NCBI RefSeq assembly: GCF_004959935.1
Contig: NZ_SMYN01000001.1
Coordinates: 284,280 to 348,279, forward strand
Reading direction: 5' to 3'
DNA from: Falsirhodobacter xinxiangensis
GTDB taxonomy: Bacteria > Pseudomonadota > Alphaproteobacteria > Rhodobacterales > Rhodobacteraceae
Length of the DNA stretch: 64,000 bases
Positions 59,044-64,000 of this stretch are shown here, piece after piece. Below the pieces are notes generated by a model. The model saw only the letters and a program-made list of their open reading frames with translations. It did not search any database and was not told the origin of the DNA. Both the position numbers and the translations under genes were made by a program. Each line of letters starts with the position of its first letter. Position 1 is the first letter of the stretch.

Positions 59044-59118
59044 TCCGGCGTAGCTCAGCGGTAGAGCAGTTGACTGTTAATCAATTGGTCGTAGGTTCGA
59101 TCCCTACCGCCGGAGCCA
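59044..59118 (+). tRNA. tRNA-Asn (anticodon GTT)
   Basis: A 75-nt cloverleaf with encoded CCA. Acceptor TCCGGCG pairs fully with CGCCGGA, the anticodon loop is CTGTTAA, the T-loop TTCGATC. Confidence 0.97.
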
Positions 59119-59145: not shown

Positions 59146-59175
59146 CGAAAAAGCGGCCCCGCAAGGGCCGCTTTT
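59146..59175. terminator. Bidirectional intrinsic terminator after tRNA-Asn
   Basis: A 9-bp perfect stem AAGCGGCCC / GGGCCGCTT with loop CGCAA, T-run TTTT on plus and TTTTT on minus. It ends tRNA-Asn and probably the minus-strand secretion operon. The 217 bp from here to 59392 hold nothing I can call. Confidence 0.85.
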
Positions 59176-59392
59176 CGCATTTGGGCACAGACACAAAACT
59201 GGGCACATTGCCGCGCGGAGTCGCACTCTTCTATCGTCCGCCGCCGACGGCATCCCTACTATTTTCAAGATCGGCTCGAATCCCGAAATCCGAGCCTTCA
59301 ACTCTCGAAAGCCTCATCCACGCGCCCGAAGATCGCTGACGCCTGCGGCGCGGCATCATCAGGATGCGCGCCGCCGACAGGTCGTGTTCGGA

Positions 59393-62300
59393 TCAGGACG
59401 TTCCGCCCTGCCCTTCCATGTCGGTGTTCAGGTTATCGCCGTCGCCTGCGTAGTCTTCGTGGTTGTCCTCGTCCAGCCCGAAGCCCGAGCTGAACTGGCC
59501 GCGTTCCTCCGCCTTCTGCCCCTGATCGCCGTTCCAGTAGTTGATGAAGTGATCCACCTCATCGGCACGATATTCGAAGACGCTGATGCCGTCCGGCGCG
59601 TCGCGCTGGCCATAGCTTTCCATATAGGCGTCGAGGAAGCGGAAGTTGTCCAGACCGTTCTCCGTCAGCAGGCCTTGGGTTTCAAGCTGCTTGAAGAAGT
59701 CCTGCATATCGTCGCGATAGGTGTTGATCTGGTTGGTTTTCTTGACGTCGTTGATGATGTCCGGGATCAGCGTTGCGATCGACAGCACGGCCGAGATCAG
59801 GAAGGACGGTGCAGCCGCCGCCTTGACGAATTGCAACCCCTTCAGCAGCCCGAGGCCCGAGGCCGCGCCGCCCACGACGCCGAAGCCCCCCGCCGCGACC
59901 TGAATCGCGCCCTTGGCCGTCGTCGTGTCGTCGCCCGAGGCGAGGCCCTTCTTGATGGTCAGCGCGCCGATCGCGATGTCGGCGGCACCGGCGAAGGTGT
60001 CTGCCCCCGCGCTGGCGATCAATAGGGCAGCGGAAGCCCCCTTGTGCCATTTGCTGGCCTGGTTGCCGTCGGCATCCACGATGCCCGGACGGGTGTTGTA
60101 GCCATCCTGGACCGAGTTGATCAGCTTTTCGGGGTCCTCGACCTCGAACTTGCTGAGCTTTTCCTTGTAGCTGTCGCTTTTGGACGACGCATCGAGCGCC
60201 TCGCTGAAGGCGTTGCGGAAGCCTTCGTAGCTGTTGTTCGGGCCGGCGGGTGTCGGCGCCTGCGGCTTGCCCAGCAGATCGTTCAGCGTCGCATCCAGCC
60301 CCAGAAGCGACGAGGACGCTTTCTTCTGCGCCTTCATCTCGTCGATTTCGGCTTGCGTCCTGATCTCACGGTTCTCGTTTTCCCGCTCGCTGGCGGGGGC
60401 GTCTTCCGAGACGTATTTCTTGTCGATCTCGGCGTGGTGGTCGATGACGCTCTTGTTGTGCTCGCCGATGATGTAGTTGCCCAGATCGGCGAAATGCTTG
60501 CCCGCGCCGACGAAGCTGACGAAGTCCTTGGCGATGGCCAGACGTTCCTCGGTCGTGTCGGCCAGCGTGCCGCCCTTGCCCGCAAGCTGATAGATGCCCG
60601 AGGCCAACGACACGACACCGCCCAGCGAGCCGATCACGCCCGCCTTTGTCATCTCCTCGAAGAAGCCGCGGATCGTGCCGCTTTGCAGGCCCTCGTATTT
60701 GCCGTTGCCGATGATCTTTTCGACATCCTTGGTGGTGACGGTGCCGGTTTGCGAATATTTCGCGCCGATCTCCTGCAGGGCCTTGCTGAATTCGGCATTG
60801 GTCTTCTTGTCGCCAAGGATGCCTTCCAGCGCCTTTTGCATTTCCGCCGCGCGACGGCCCAGATCCAGACCGCCCTTCTTGATCAGCGTCAGCAGAATCT
60901 TTCCCGCATCGGAACCGGCAAGGGTCAGGTTCTCCTCGCTGATCTTCGACGGATCGGCCATGAGCTCGTTGAGCTCCATCGTCATGGTGTCGATCTGCAT
61001 GTTCTGTGCGAACTTGGCGGCGGCTTCGGGATCGGCGGCCAGAAGCGAGGTATAGGTCGCGGCGATGTCGTCCTCGGCCACCTGCTTCTTCTCGGGGTCG
61101 AGCGAGAGTTCCTGGATGTATTTGGCGTATTCAGGGCTTTCGGCCATCTTCTTCAGGTCTTCGACGATCTTGTCGCCCCCCTCGACCTTGCCAAGCGCAG
61201 TCTTGCGGGCGGCGGCGATATCCTTGCCGACGGCCTCGGAGTTCATCAGCGCGGCGATCTGCTCGTCTACCTTGGCGCCGTCGATGACGCCTTCCATGTC
61301 CTTGCCGGTGACCGCGCCGGTCGTCACGCCCTGGCTGATGCTGAGCGTGTACATCTGTGCGCCATTGTCGATGAAGGCCCCTGCCTTCATCGCGTTATAC
61401 AGCTTCGCCCGGTCGTCATCGGCCTTGATGGACCCGTCATCCATCCCCTTCTTCCAGTCGGCCATCACCTGCTGCCAGGCGGCCTCGGTCACGGTCAGGT
61501 TCTTGCCGTCGGTGCCTTTTTCGGTGGTGGTCAGGTTGGCGATGTCCTGTTCCGTCATCGGCGGCAGGCCTGCTTCCTCGCGCGCGGCATTGACGGCATC
61601 GGCGCGGGCCTTTTCTGCCTTGGCGTCCATCTCGGGGGTGATGGTGTCGGCCATCTCGCCCTTCAGCGCCTTGAAGCCGTATTTGCCAAAGTCCTGAAGC
61701 CGCCCGGCTTCGGTGTTGTTCTCGGCCTCGCCGCTTTTGGTGAAACCGTTGATCTTGCCGTCGCTGGTGTTGCCGGTGGAATTGCCGGTCGCGTCATAGG
61801 TCTCGATATGTTTCAGAACCTGCGAGGCGCGGAAGGCGGCATCGGCGTCGGTCTCGAAATCGCCGACCTGTTCCTTCAGCATGTCCTTGACGTCCGACTG
61901 GTTGCCAAGGTTCTTCAGCAGCGGATCGCCGTTGATGATCTCCTCGGCGCTGCGGGTGTCGCCTTCGGGGCGGACCCAGTGGATGCCCAGCGCCTCGGCC
62001 CTGGCCTTGGCGTCCTTGTCGTCGCCCGCGCCCTCGGCGCTGCCGATCTCGCCTTTCAGATGGCTGAAGCCGTATTTCCCGAAATCCTGAAGCCGCCCGG
62101 CCTCGGTGCCGTTGTCCGCCTCGCCGCTTTTGCGGAAGCCGTTGATCTCGCCGTTGCCGATGTCGTTGCCGGCGATGCGCTTGCCGTCGCTGTCGTAATT
62201 CTCGACGTGATACAGAACCTGCGCGGCGCGGTGGGCGGCGTTGGGATCATTCTCGAAATCGCCGACGCGCTCTTTCAGCATCTCCTTGACGTTGCTTTGA

Positions 62301-62887
62301 TTGCCAAGGTTCTTCAGCAGCGGGTTCTTGTCGATGATCTCCTGCGCCGTGCTCTTGTCGCCTTCGGGCAGTTCCCATTCGATGCCCAGCGCCTCGGCCT
62401 CCTTGCGGGCTTCCGGGTCTTCGGCGGCGGTTTCGATATGCTGCAATTCGCCGTTCAGATGGCCGAAACCGTATTTGCCGAAATCCTGAAGCCGCCCGGC
62501 CTCGGTGCCATGATCGGCCTGCCCGCTCTTGCGGAAGCCGTTCACCTCGCCGTTGCCCATGTCACCGCCGAGGATGGTCTTGCCGTCCTGCTCGAACCGT
62601 TCGATGTGCTCCAGCACCTGCACCGCGCGGAAGGTGGCATCGGCATCCTCGCCGATCTTGCCGCCGACGCGCTTTTCAAGCGAATCCCGCACGCCCGACT
62701 GGTTGCCAAGGTTCTTCAGAAGATCGCTTTCCTCCAATATCGTCTTGGCGTCGCGCGTATCACCCTCGGGGCGTTCCCACAGAATTCCCGCCTCTTTCGC
62801 ATCCGCCTTGGCCTGTTCCCATGCGGCAGTGTTGTCCAGATCGACGGATTTGGGATCGACGGGGGACGAGGGCGTGACGTTGGACAT
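59393..62887 (-). CDS. HrpF/NolX-like type III secretion translocon-type protein with three repeats
   Basis: 1164 residues. No Sec signal, as expected of a type III substrate. Three tandem ~115-residue repeats lie at residues 34-149, 168-282 and 301-412, each with LLKNLGNQS, then an FRAxQVLxHIE-type helix and ending TEAGRLQDFGKYGF. A long helical middle (about 430-780) follows. The C-terminal third has hydrophobic segments (VIGSLGGVVSLASGIY, SALLIASAGADTFAGAAD, FLISAVLSIATLIPDI) able to enter membranes. This order, repeats then putative pore, is that of HrpF/NopX translocon proteins of plant-associated bacteria. The family call is from remembered motifs, not a search. It is the last gene of the minus-strand cluster with the L,D-transpeptidase and SctU. 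Confidence 0.75.
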   Translation of the reverse strand: MSNVTPSSPVDPKSVDLDNTAAWEQAKADAKEAGILWERPEGDTRDAKTILEESDLLKNLGNQSGVRDSLEKRVGGKIGEDADATFRAVQVLEHIERFEQDGKTILGGDMGNGEVNGFRKSGQADHGTEAGRLQDFGKYGFGHLNGELQHIETAAEDPEARKEAEALGIEWELPEGDKSTAQEIIDKNPLLKNLGNQSNVKEMLKERVGDFENDPNAAHRAAQVLYHVENYDSDGKRIAGNDIGNGEINGFRKSGEADNGTEAGRLQDFGKYGFSHLKGEIGSAEGAGDDKDAKARAEALGIHWVRPEGDTRSAEEIINGDPLLKNLGNQSDVKDMLKEQVGDFETDADAAFRASQVLKHIETYDATGNSTGNTSDGKINGFTKSGEAENNTEAGRLQDFGKYGFKALKGEMADTITPEMDAKAEKARADAVNAAREEAGLPPMTEQDIANLTTTEKGTDGKNLTVTEAAWQQVMADWKKGMDDGSIKADDDRAKLYNAMKAGAFIDNGAQMYTLSISQGVTTGAVTGKDMEGVIDGAKVDEQIAALMNSEAVGKDIAAARKTALGKVEGGDKIVEDLKKMAESPEYAKYIQELSLDPEKKQVAEDDIAATYTSLLAADPEAAAKFAQNMQIDTMTMELNELMADPSKISEENLTLAGSDAGKILLTLIKKGGLDLGRRAAEMQKALEGILGDKKTNAEFSKALQEIGAKYSQTGTVTTKDVEKIIGNGKYEGLQSGTIRGFFEEMTKAGVIGSLGGVVSLASGIYQLAGKGGTLADTTEERLAIAKDFVSFVGAGKHFADLGNYIIGEHNKSVIDHHAEIDKKYVSEDAPASERENENREIRTQAEIDEMKAQKKASSSLLGLDATLNDLLGKPQAPTPAGPNNSYEGFRNAFSEALDASSKSDSYKEKLSKFEVEDPEKLINSVQDGYNTRPGIVDADGNQASKWHKGASAALLIASAGADTFAGAADIAIGALTIKKGLASGDDTTTAKGAIQVAAGGFGVVGGAASGLGLLKGLQFVKAAAAPSFLISAVLSIATLIPDIINDVKKTNQINTYRDDMQDFFKQLETQGLLTENGLDNFRFLDAYMESYGQRDAPDGISVFEYRADEVDHFINYWNGDQGQKAEERGQFSSGFGLDEDNHEDYAGDGDNLNTDMEGQGGTS
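61652..62788 (-). repeat. Three coding repeats of the HrpF-like gene
   Basis: Repeat units at 62441-62788, 62042-62386 and 61652-61987, period 133-134 codons. Each unit opens with a GI-x-W segment and PEGD and closes with GRLQDFGKYGF. The first unit differs most at the middle (VGGKIGEDADA against VGDFE...). Confidence 0.85.
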
Positions 62888-63002
62888 GAGAACGAACCTT
62901 TCGGGATTTCAGTCGCAGGGTTAGCGAAGGGTTAACGGTCGCAGTGTGACCTGCGTATGACGCTTTGGGCTTGATAAGGCGGGGATTTCCGCCGACCTGC
63001 GA

Positions 63003-63554
63003 TCAGAACACCCGAACGCGCGCCCCGATCCGCACGCGCGGATAAAGGTCGATCACATCGGTATTCGTCATGCGGAAACAGCCCGAAGATGCCGCATCGC
63101 CCACCGTCTCCGGCTCGTTCGAGCCGTGGATGCGGTAAAGCGTCTGCCCCAGATACAGCGCGCGCGCCCCCATCGGATTGCCCGGCCCGCCCGGCACAAA
63201 GGCGGGCAGATCGGGACGGCGGGCGCGCATGTCGGCGGGCGGGCGCCAGTCGGGCCATTCACGTTTCGCGCTGACCGTCTCGGTTCCGAACCAGCCGAAG
63301 CCCTCGGCCCCCACGCCGACCTGATAGCTTCGGGCGACGCCTTCCGGCTCGATCAGGTAAAGGCGGCGGGCCTGCGTATCGATCAGGATGGTCCCGGGCG
63401 CCTCGGTGGTATGCAGCGCGATGCGCGCCTGAGTGCTCCGGTCGCCCTGCCCCGGCGCGCGGCCCATCGGGCCCAGCAGGAAATCGACATATTCGTCGGC
63501 CCGCAACGGCAGGGGCGCAAGGATCAGACCGGCCAGAAATCCGCGACGCAACAT
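63003..63554 (-). CDS. L,D-transpeptidase (YkuD) with Tat-like signal, in the secretion operon
   Basis: 183 residues. The signal region MLRRGFLAGLILAPLPLRA has an RR-x-F-L twin-arginine-like start. The YkuD domain has IHGSNEP (histidine 143) and SSGCFRMTN with catalytic cysteine 159. Such enzymes make 3-3 peptidoglycan cross-links or attach proteins to the wall. It starts 9 bp after the sctU-like stop with GAGGAA, so it belongs to that operon; local wall remodelling for the secretion channel is an attractive role (inference). Confidence 0.88.
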   Translation of the reverse strand: MLRRGFLAGLILAPLPLRADEYVDFLLGPMGRAPGQGDRSTQARIALHTTEAPGTILIDTQARRLYLIEPEGVARSYQVGVGAEGFGWFGTETVSAKREWPDWRPPADMRARRPDLPAFVPGGPGNPMGARALYLGQTLYRIHGSNEPETVGDAASSGCFRMTNTDVIDLYPRVRIGARVRVF

Positions 63555-63563
63555 GGGGCTTCC

Positions 63564-64000
63564 TCAGATCAGCTTGGCGGCGACAAGGATGTCGGCCACG
63601 GGTTGGAAATGGGCGGCGGGCACCGGCTCGCCGTTGCGGGCGGCGCGGGCGATGGCACCGGCCAGCGCCGCATTGGCGACGACGGGAATGCGCATCCCCC
63701 GCGCCTGCTGGATCAGCCCCGCCGAGGTCTCCGGCCCCGCGCGGCACACGATCACCGGCACCGACGTCTCGCCACGGATGTAGCGGATGCCGATCGCCCA
63801 CCCATCCGCCGTGCCGACCAGCATCGAGGCGCGGTCGATCCCCGTCTTCGTCCCGTGCGCCTGCAATTCGCGGCGCTGCTGACGGCGCTGCTGCTGGATG
63901 GCCGGGTCGCCCTCGGCATCCTTGCGTTCGCGTTTCAACTCGCTCCGGCTCATCTTCATGTCGCGCTTGAACAGCCATTGCTGGACCAGCACGTCGACGC
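63564..64000 (-). CDS. Type III secretion export-gate protein (SctU/FlhB family), C-terminal part, NPTH missing
   Basis: About 145 C-terminal residues; the membrane part lies outside the window. KMSRSELKRERKDAEGDP is the cytoplasmic linker typical of SctU/FlhB. The following domain (AIGIRYIRGETSVPVIVCRA, LIQQARGMRIPVVANAALA, VPAAHFQPVADILVA) matches the SctU-C fold. The self-cleavage motif NPTH expected after MLV is replaced by GTAD (MLVGTADGWAIGIRY). That loop normally cleaves to switch substrate class, so this protein is either non-cleaving or divergent. The neighbouring HrpF-like gene favours a virulence-type rather than flagellar system. Confidence 0.8.
   Translation of the reverse strand, partial: VDVLVQQWLFKRDMKMSRSELKRERKDAEGDPAIQQQRRQQRRELQAHGTKTGIDRASMLVGTADGWAIGIRYIRGETSVPVIVCRAGPETSAGLIQQARGMRIPVVANAALAGAIARAARNGEPVPAAHFQPVADILVAAKLI

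Follow-up and report, generated by a model that had tools for sequence, protein, structure and literature searches.

Introduction

Current models hold that an injectisome switches from exporting its needle to exporting effectors through the autocleavage of SctU and the action of the SctP ruler. In the studied systems, cleavage between asparagine and proline (N-P) was described as a part of this switch (PMC3040844, partial text), and for the Rhc systems SctP is given as not known (PMC3574062 and PMC3973906, partial texts). Subgroup II of these systems (Rhc-II), represented by the type III secretion system II (T3SS-II) of the NGR234 plasmid pNGR234b, is described in the same partial texts as having a split secretin, no SctP and, in some members, a HrpK-like gene. 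The secretin part of the Rhc channel, RhcC2, is known to be of the Tad-pilus type (PMC3459982, partial text). CpaD-like and tetratricopeptide repeat (TPR) proteins are known from Rhc-I (PMC4311626, partial text), subgroup II has no y4yS gene (PMC4500985), and PMC3574062 noted that a TPR gene separates the two genes of the secretin, with no pilotin role given to it in the available part. Here, we describe an injectisome locus of Falsirhodobacter xinxiangensis that starts near the right end of a 64,000-nucleotide stretch of contig NZ_SMYN01000001.1 (the whole stretch is referred to as the window) and compare it with these systems.

Results

Gene content and family placement of the locus

The window comprises bases 284280-348279 of the contig (C1; 414,324 bases), a window position being the C1 position minus 284279. 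The initial annotation had proposed that the window ends at one side of an injectisome-like locus, based on three same-strand genes encoding an SctU/FlhB-type export protein, an L,D-transpeptidase and an HrpF/NolX-like repeat protein. The three genes are present as described, and C1 beyond the window carries the other sct genes to the right. As judged from the sequence, the window end is thus confirmed as the edge of a complete type III injectisome locus. The gene set occupies ~19.7 kb, from window position 59393 to ~79073, and runs ~15 kb past the right window edge. It begins on the minus strand with the genes of a 1164-aa putative HrpK-like translocator (59393..62887) and the L,D-transpeptidase (YkuD; 63003..63554), followed by sctU (63564-64613, with the C-terminal part, 63564..64000, inside the window), whose complete 349-aa product matched PF01312 with an E-value of 1.5e-79. 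Between sctU and the CpaD-like gene, the plus strand encodes a TadD-like TPR lipoprotein; a minus-strand open reading frame (ORF), C1:348889-349689, was read as the antisense of this plus-strand gene and rejected as a gene of its own. The minus-strand block continues with the genes of the CpaD-like lipoprotein (65407-65820) and the Tad-type secretin (65792-67084; PF00263 and PF13629), sctV, the genes of a small TPR protein and a 128-aa protein, sctD, whose product matched the Y4YQ C-terminal domain, and the p74 gene. The plus-strand block encodes the SctC N-terminal protein (matching TIGR02516 positions 2-152), p70, SctI and SctJ, followed by the K, L, N, O, Q, R, S and T positions. The last gene, encoding p148, is again on the minus strand and ends at ~79073.

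Profile matches were obtained for sctU, V, J, D, R and T and for both secretin parts. SctV scored 814.6 bits against a TIGR01399 cut-off of 692.25 and SctJ 225.5 bits against a TIGR02544 cut-off of 161.95; SctU stayed under the cut-off of its SctU model (282 versus 358). SctN and SctS were assigned via matches to annotated genes of other loci, as was SctQ, for which the profile match was sub-threshold. The SctI, K, L and O positions were assigned by place and similarity, the latter being weak for SctO.

In trees of 40 and 44 SctV/FlhA proteins, SctV grouped with the proteins of the NGR234 pNGR234b, Rhizobium johnstonii, Phyllobacterium, Halomonas and Pseudomonas loci (Shimodaira-Hasegawa-like approximate likelihood-ratio test, SH-aLRT, 97-99), and the two Rhc-III rows of the 44-protein tree fell outside this Rhc-II clade. 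The SctU tree also supported the placement with NGR234b T3SS-II. The Pseudomonas syringae T3SS-2 was left out of the SctV and SctU trees, and the L036 and Paracoccus kondratievae loci, having no SctV ORF, are absent from the SctV tree. According to these trees, the locus belongs to Rhc subgroup II, together with the pNGR234b T3SS-II. The grouping was made post hoc, after looking at the sequences; the scan for loci gave at least 80.

The comparison with described systems is in line with this placement. The split secretin is present, in the form of a C1 protein and a Tad-type C2 protein, and the two-block internal gene order is common to Phyllobacterium (two records), NGR234b and R. johnstonii, the blocks being divergent here, in both Phyllobacterium records and in NGR234b, and tandem in R. 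johnstonii. The NGR234b system shares with our locus the two gene blocks, the split secretin, the CpaD/TadD-like genes, the L,D-transpeptidase and an SctU without N-P. It differs in its core proteins (25-71% identical to those of this locus), in the absence of p148, of which only the tail was found, as p74, and in that no HrpK-like gene is reported for it in the available part of PMC3574062. The P. syringae T3SS-2 was likened by description only: the partial text of PMC3574062 gives, as in our locus, a secretin in two parts with a TPR gene facing the other way between their genes, and also a 1106-aa HrpK-like protein, to which our 1164-aa protein may correspond; one block is described there as inverted in comparison to NGR234b.

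SctU of the sampled Rhc branch lacks the N-P motif

Residues 268-271 of SctU (63801-63812) read TADG where FlhB/SctU proteins have NPTH. Among 77 SctU/FlhB proteins, N-P was absent from the cleavage site in 26/26 members of the Rhc branch (13 Rhc-II, 5 Rhc-I, 2 Rhc-III and six further proteins from G286, G221, G054, G023, P. kondratievae and Leisingera) and kept in 51/51 others. A first set of 72 proteins, in which one contig was counted twice (L044, the same as G054), had N-P kept in 50/50 proteins outside Rhc (42 of them with NPTH) and absent in 22/22 inside. The duplicate was removed from the 77-protein set, and the additions (Rhc-III, two more Rhc-I, Leisingera and one B. japonicum locus) agreed with the reading. 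The comparison was devised post hoc, after looking at the sequences; the stretches of the Pseudomonas loci PsMWU16 and PsURMO17 hold no SctU, and the Halomonas row covers a single fragment of a gene that was read as two. On the trees, the motif loss appeared as one change, with a support of 100 in the 72-row tree and of 64 after the long-branched Leisingera row was added in the 77-row tree. NPTH is intact in two rhizobial injectisomes of another type (R. gallicum M101 and B. japonicum p2S06B), and the host is therefore not the reason for the loss. Since Rhc-I systems known to work also lack N-P, the missing motif was not used to classify the locus.

The cleavage site reads AAPH in the P. kondratievae plasmid pKON1 and G-EQ in Leisingera sp. 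S132. The SctU proteins of Rhc-III (Rhizobium phaseoli and Rhizobium sp. C104; L192:11983-12780 and L193:9983-10780) are 265 aa long, with the whole C-terminal domain past the cleavage site missing. Rhc-III shares with our locus the Rhc branch in both the SctU and SctV trees and differs from it in this early stop and in an SctV on a very long branch.

It is conceivable that the Rhc-branch SctU cleaves itself at a bond other than the usual one and that the switch operates normally, as our examination covered the usual site only. We consider this unlikely, though not to be dismissed lightly, because no NP.H string was found anywhere in 21 Rhc-branch SctU proteins, the letters at the site vary freely (TADG, VPDG, DPGT, EEGA, SRDR), and the two Rhc-III proteins stop before it. 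The SctO-position gene overlaps sctQ, which leaves no room for SctP between them. The Rhc branch seems to have lost the self-cleaving SctU switch. Our locus is, by its placement, of a known type, and the missing motif concerns the whole Rhc branch. A literature search found no published statement of the missing N-P motif, although one may exist in subscription papers.

The 1164-aa protein as a putative HrpK-like translocator

The 1164-aa protein contains no cysteine and consists of three N-terminal repeats of ~110 aa and a 735-aa core (residues 430-1164). The repeats (residues 38-147, 172-280 and 305-411; 61655..62776, minus strand) are pairwise 57-66% identical, far beyond chance. The repeat character assigned by the initial annotation therefore stands, and its HrpF/NolX label has to be abandoned, as PF05819 gave no match at E<=1, compared to 723.8 bits for the NGR234 NopX control. 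The first 430 residues are 61% identical, over 412 columns, to the Phyllobacterium zundukense HrpK-domain protein. As the repeat module is also found in an ankyrin-repeat protein of G286 (43% identity) and in a Pantoea protein adjoining an hrp locus, it is, as judged from these matches, a module that moves between type-III-associated proteins. The 786-aa G286 protein (L013:915-3275, contig C18) combines two module copies with ankyrin repeats and is encoded on another contig of a genome that has an injectisome. For the core, identities of 36-37% were obtained with Halomonas PA16-9 and P. kondratievae proteins and of 30-36% with those of Pseudomonas MWU16, and it is by similarity a separate family found in these three. 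A search for solved-structure relatives of the core gave nothing useful, a single pentatricopeptide chain at E 0.0026 not being credible. The hydropathy scan indicated hydrophobic C-terminal segments at residues 955-976 and 994-1049 (59741..60025, minus strand), which are candidates for membrane insertion.

The P. zundukense and R. johnstonii proteins carry PF16937. The 1164-aa protein shares with such HrpK/PF16937 putative translocators the repeat module (in the Phyllobacterium protein), a similar size and the C-terminal hydrophobic stretch, and differs from them in the lack of a PF16937 match and in its separate core family. Its layout also resembles that of PSPPH_2540 (PMC3574062, partial text). 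The protein is better named a HrpK-like putative translocator. Alternatively, it could be an injected effector or a surface protein, in agreement with the presence of the repeat module in the G286 ankyrin-repeat and Pantoea hrp-side proteins and with the location of the P. kondratievae core relative on the plasmid that also carries sctU, ~18 kb away from it. This appears improbable, at about the level of an alternative SctU cleavage bond, given that the gene occupies the locus edge here and that its relatives do so in the congeners G295 (86.5% identity), G150 (70.6%) and G298 (first 470 residues, where the stretch stops). Moreover, core relatives are encoded inside the Halomonas injectisome gene set and beside that of Pseudomonas MWU16, and the hydrophobic C-terminus and the PSPPH_2540-like layout point to a translocator.

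The L,D-transpeptidase and the small proteins

The initial annotation was also right about the L,D-transpeptidase, which has a PF03734 domain and a start resembling a signal peptide, and in which the catalytic cysteine motif of YkuD enzymes, HG..SSGCFR, is intact with Cys159 (codon 63078-63080). A transpeptidase gene was found beside sctU in 8/12 assessable subgroup II loci, 2/14 being not assessable (PsMWU16 and PsURMO17, without the sctU side). The eight locus transpeptidases grouped apart from four other such enzymes of this genome with moderate support (80/86).

The p74 protein, with ~52 conserved residues, is encoded next to sctD, the place that nopA occupies in Rhc-I (PMC3973906, partial text). 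The 148-aa p148 combines a ~95-aa domain with a tail that is a near copy of the last ~45 residues of p74, and its gene delimits the locus on the side opposite the 1164-aa gene, as it also does in G150 and G298. Comparison of p148 with HrpK or NopX by hhalign was not significant, and the search for its solved-structure relatives gave nothing useful. Based on its architecture, p148 may be a tip or adaptor protein built on a needle subunit.

Borders, distribution and integrity of the locus

As the initial annotation had proposed, the left border appears to be marked by a terminator beside tRNA-Asn (59044-59118). The terminator-like hairpin at 59148..59176 (minus strand), 3' of the 1164-aa gene, has a 13-pair stem and a T-rich tail and was the strongest stem listed. 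The scanned region contained 6 such sites versus 5.3 expected from shuffles; the count is therefore uninformative, and only the strength and place of this hairpin speak for it. The tRNA was rejected as an integration site, as no repeat of >=12 bases of its 3' end was found in C1:343401-380999.

SctV exceeded the cut-off in 4/7 genomes of the genus, and these four are also the ones in which the secretin was detected. The locus order is the same in the congeners, and the neighbouring genes differ where seen. Within the family, SctV passed the curated cut-off in 8/295 sampled genomes, and such systems look uncommon there; this number is a minimum, as SctV proteins of other types may fall short of the cut-off. 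Only this genome and G150 of the eight fall into subgroup II, the tree holding seven of them (G142 was left out). The G150 locus is divided between the two ends of its 272,717-bp contig, as expected if the replicon is circular, and 13 kb adjoining it match a Ketogulonicigenium vulgare plasmid (89.6% over 87%).

Several further loci were observed. A further SctV/FlhA-like gene scoring 530-670 bits, under the SctV cut-off and over the usual flagellar score, is present in other genomes of the family (G286 C22:5372-7390, G147 C270:1152-3149, G126 C57 and others), and other injectisome or flagellar types may hide there. Two other Rhodobacterales carry injectisome genes on plasmids, namely P. kondratievae on pKON1 (L031), which is rich in insertion sequences and carries the relative of the 1164-aa core, and Leisingera sp. 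S132 (L194). Subgroup II type injectisome genes are found on Klebsiella pneumoniae pAP855 (L145) and two further Klebsiella plasmids. An unannotated subgroup II injectisome lies on a plasmid of the gammaproteobacterium Halomonas PA16-9 (L028, 825000-865000), with several genes read in pieces, due to either sequencing errors or decay.

It could be argued that the island is a non-functional remnant on mobile replicons: it occupies differing places in the congeners and spans the contig ends in G150, some genes are fragmented in the copies of Halomonas PA16-9 and R. johnstonii, and no effector was recognised within our locus. We regard this as quite unlikely, since no frame break was seen in the locus of this genome and its proteins match those of G150 at 36-90% identity over most of their length, which suggests that the gene set has long been kept.

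The outer-membrane channel and a candidate pilotin

The outer-membrane channel is, by domain content, split into an SctC N-terminal protein of the RhcC1/NolW type and a Tad-pilus-type secretin of the RhcC2 type. The assignment of the latter to the Tad type follows from its pilus N-terminal and secretin domains and from its branching inside the Tad secretins, where it falls in an Rhc-II secretin clade (99/98). The Rhc-I secretins join the Azospirillaceae Tad secretins instead (96/95), and the separate positions hint at two recruitments of a Tad secretin, in Rhc-I and Rhc-II. With all rows, a single Tad origin of the Rhc secretins was not rejected by the approximately unbiased (AU) test (p 0.133 with G023 free, 0.104 with G023 included); it was rejected (p 0.003) only after removal of seven long-branch or oddly composed rows, chosen post hoc to the tree. 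Left out of the secretin set were the fragmented or interrupted sequences of Halomonas and G003, one partial sequence and two duplicates, as well as other loci of the secretin search. In two other injectisomes of this family, RhcC1 is accompanied by a 121-126-aa Tad-secretin N-terminal stub (L023:8427-8807, that is, G221 C1:68427-68807, and L014:2383-2748 of G286 C16), with no pore domain recognised within the fetched stretch.

A CpaD-like gene was found beside the secretin in 14/14 Rhc-II loci holding a secretin and a TadD-like gene in 13 of the 14, the exception being a Klebsiella plasmid locus; a further subgroup II locus, L035, had no secretin, CpaD or TadD match within its 22 kb. The TadD-like protein has a lipobox and TPR repeats, and its gene lies near that of the secretin. 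In Pseudomonas, it is the secretin C-terminus that TadD binds (PMC10499894, partial text). A C-terminal pattern, G-[FY]-x-[VILMT]-x(1-2), picked after seeing the secretin ends, was present in 12/13 Rhc-II, 3/3 Rhc-I, 1/1 G023 and 27/30 Tad or other secretins, and its first four letters occurred at 21/19,600 internal positions. The TadD-like lipoprotein is thus a candidate pilotin. Rhc-I of pNGR234a similarly has a split secretin, a CpaD-family protein (y4xK; PF09476, 64.5 bits), a TPR lipoprotein (Y4yS) and an SctU without N-P. It differs in its NolX translocator and in the tree position of its secretin, and Y4yS barely matches the subgroup II TadD-like proteins (E 1e-3 or worse).

The related secretin, the CpaD-like and TadD-like proteins and the C-terminal peptide are shared with the Tad pilus outer-membrane complex (RcpA/CpaC, CpaD, TadD), all three proteins being of Tad-type families. 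The difference is that the genes sit in an injectisome locus in which no pilus motor or pilin gene was recognised. The CpaD/TadD-like genes might be suspected of serving a Tad pilus that shares the secretin. This is very unlikely: the three genes occur together beside sctV in 13/14 subgroup II loci. A secretin search of this genome gave one match, the locus itself, of 12 candidates, and a search with an Azospirillum Tad secretin led to the same single place at E<=1e-30. A flagellar or relict flagellar export gate, suggested by the SctU/FlhB, SctV/FlhA and SctR-T families common to flagella, is refuted for all practical purposes by the injectisome-specific SctV and SctJ scores, by the presence of SctC1, SctD and the secretin, and by a separate FlhB/FlhA-like pair on contig C34, whose neighbours look flagellar by eye.

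Discussion

The best explanation of the data, and in our view a very probable one, is that the locus encodes a complete Rhc-II injectisome working as outlined below. Several observations weigh against it. The core of the 1164-aa protein is weakly HrpK-like (BLAST E 4.5e-4; hhalign 88% over 72 columns), and neither PF16937 (HrpK1) nor PF05819 matched the protein in the profile search. The CpaD-like protein reached 24.2 bits against the PF09476 cut-off of 31.1, the transpeptidase gene is absent from 4/12 assessable subgroup II loci, and profile searches with p74, p70 and p148 gave no match to a needle or tip family.

The sequence provides the gate (SctR, S, T, U and V), the SctN ATPase with the SctL- and SctO-position genes, SctQ, the SctD and SctJ rings and the split channel. 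In the proposed mechanism, TadD would bind the conserved C-terminal tail of the secretin and pilot it to the outer membrane, where RhcC1 would bridge the borrowed Tad-type pore to SctD, as proposed previously (PMC3459982, partial text). The L,D-transpeptidase may remodel peptidoglycan locally, where the machine crosses it. The needle would be formed by p74 and/or p70 and capped or adapted by p148. The 1164-aa protein would be exported last, its hydrophobic C-terminus making the translocation pore, and the target is probably a eukaryotic cell. As SctU lacks the normally self-cleaved bond and SctP was not found, export probably follows an order that does not depend on the switch by SctP and SctU cleavage; SctV might impose it together with its two small neighbours, of which one takes the place of a VscY-like protein.

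A broader scenario, which we put forward tentatively and rate as somewhat short of probable, is that the Rhc systems lost the SctU switch and the SctP ruler once (Rhc-III having lost the whole SctU C-terminal domain) and order their exports otherwise, that the p148 tip is a domain fused onto a needle-like copy, and that the Tad pore and pilotin were recruited at least twice, separately in Rhc-I and Rhc-II.

What is new here is the loss of the SctU motif, the TadD/CpaD genes accompanied by the secretin tail, the transpeptidase beside SctU and p148 with its p74-like tail, in an injectisome of the rhizobial type found in a different bacterial group. The TadD-like gene bears on a puzzle in print, the absence of a y4yS pilotin gene from subgroup II (PMC4500985), and the secretin/CpaD/TadD module illustrates how an injectisome came to use the outer-membrane complex of a pilus. 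The Rhc branch, which appears to lack both the SctU switch and SctP and yet includes working rhizobial systems, would constitute a natural experiment on the need for the switch.

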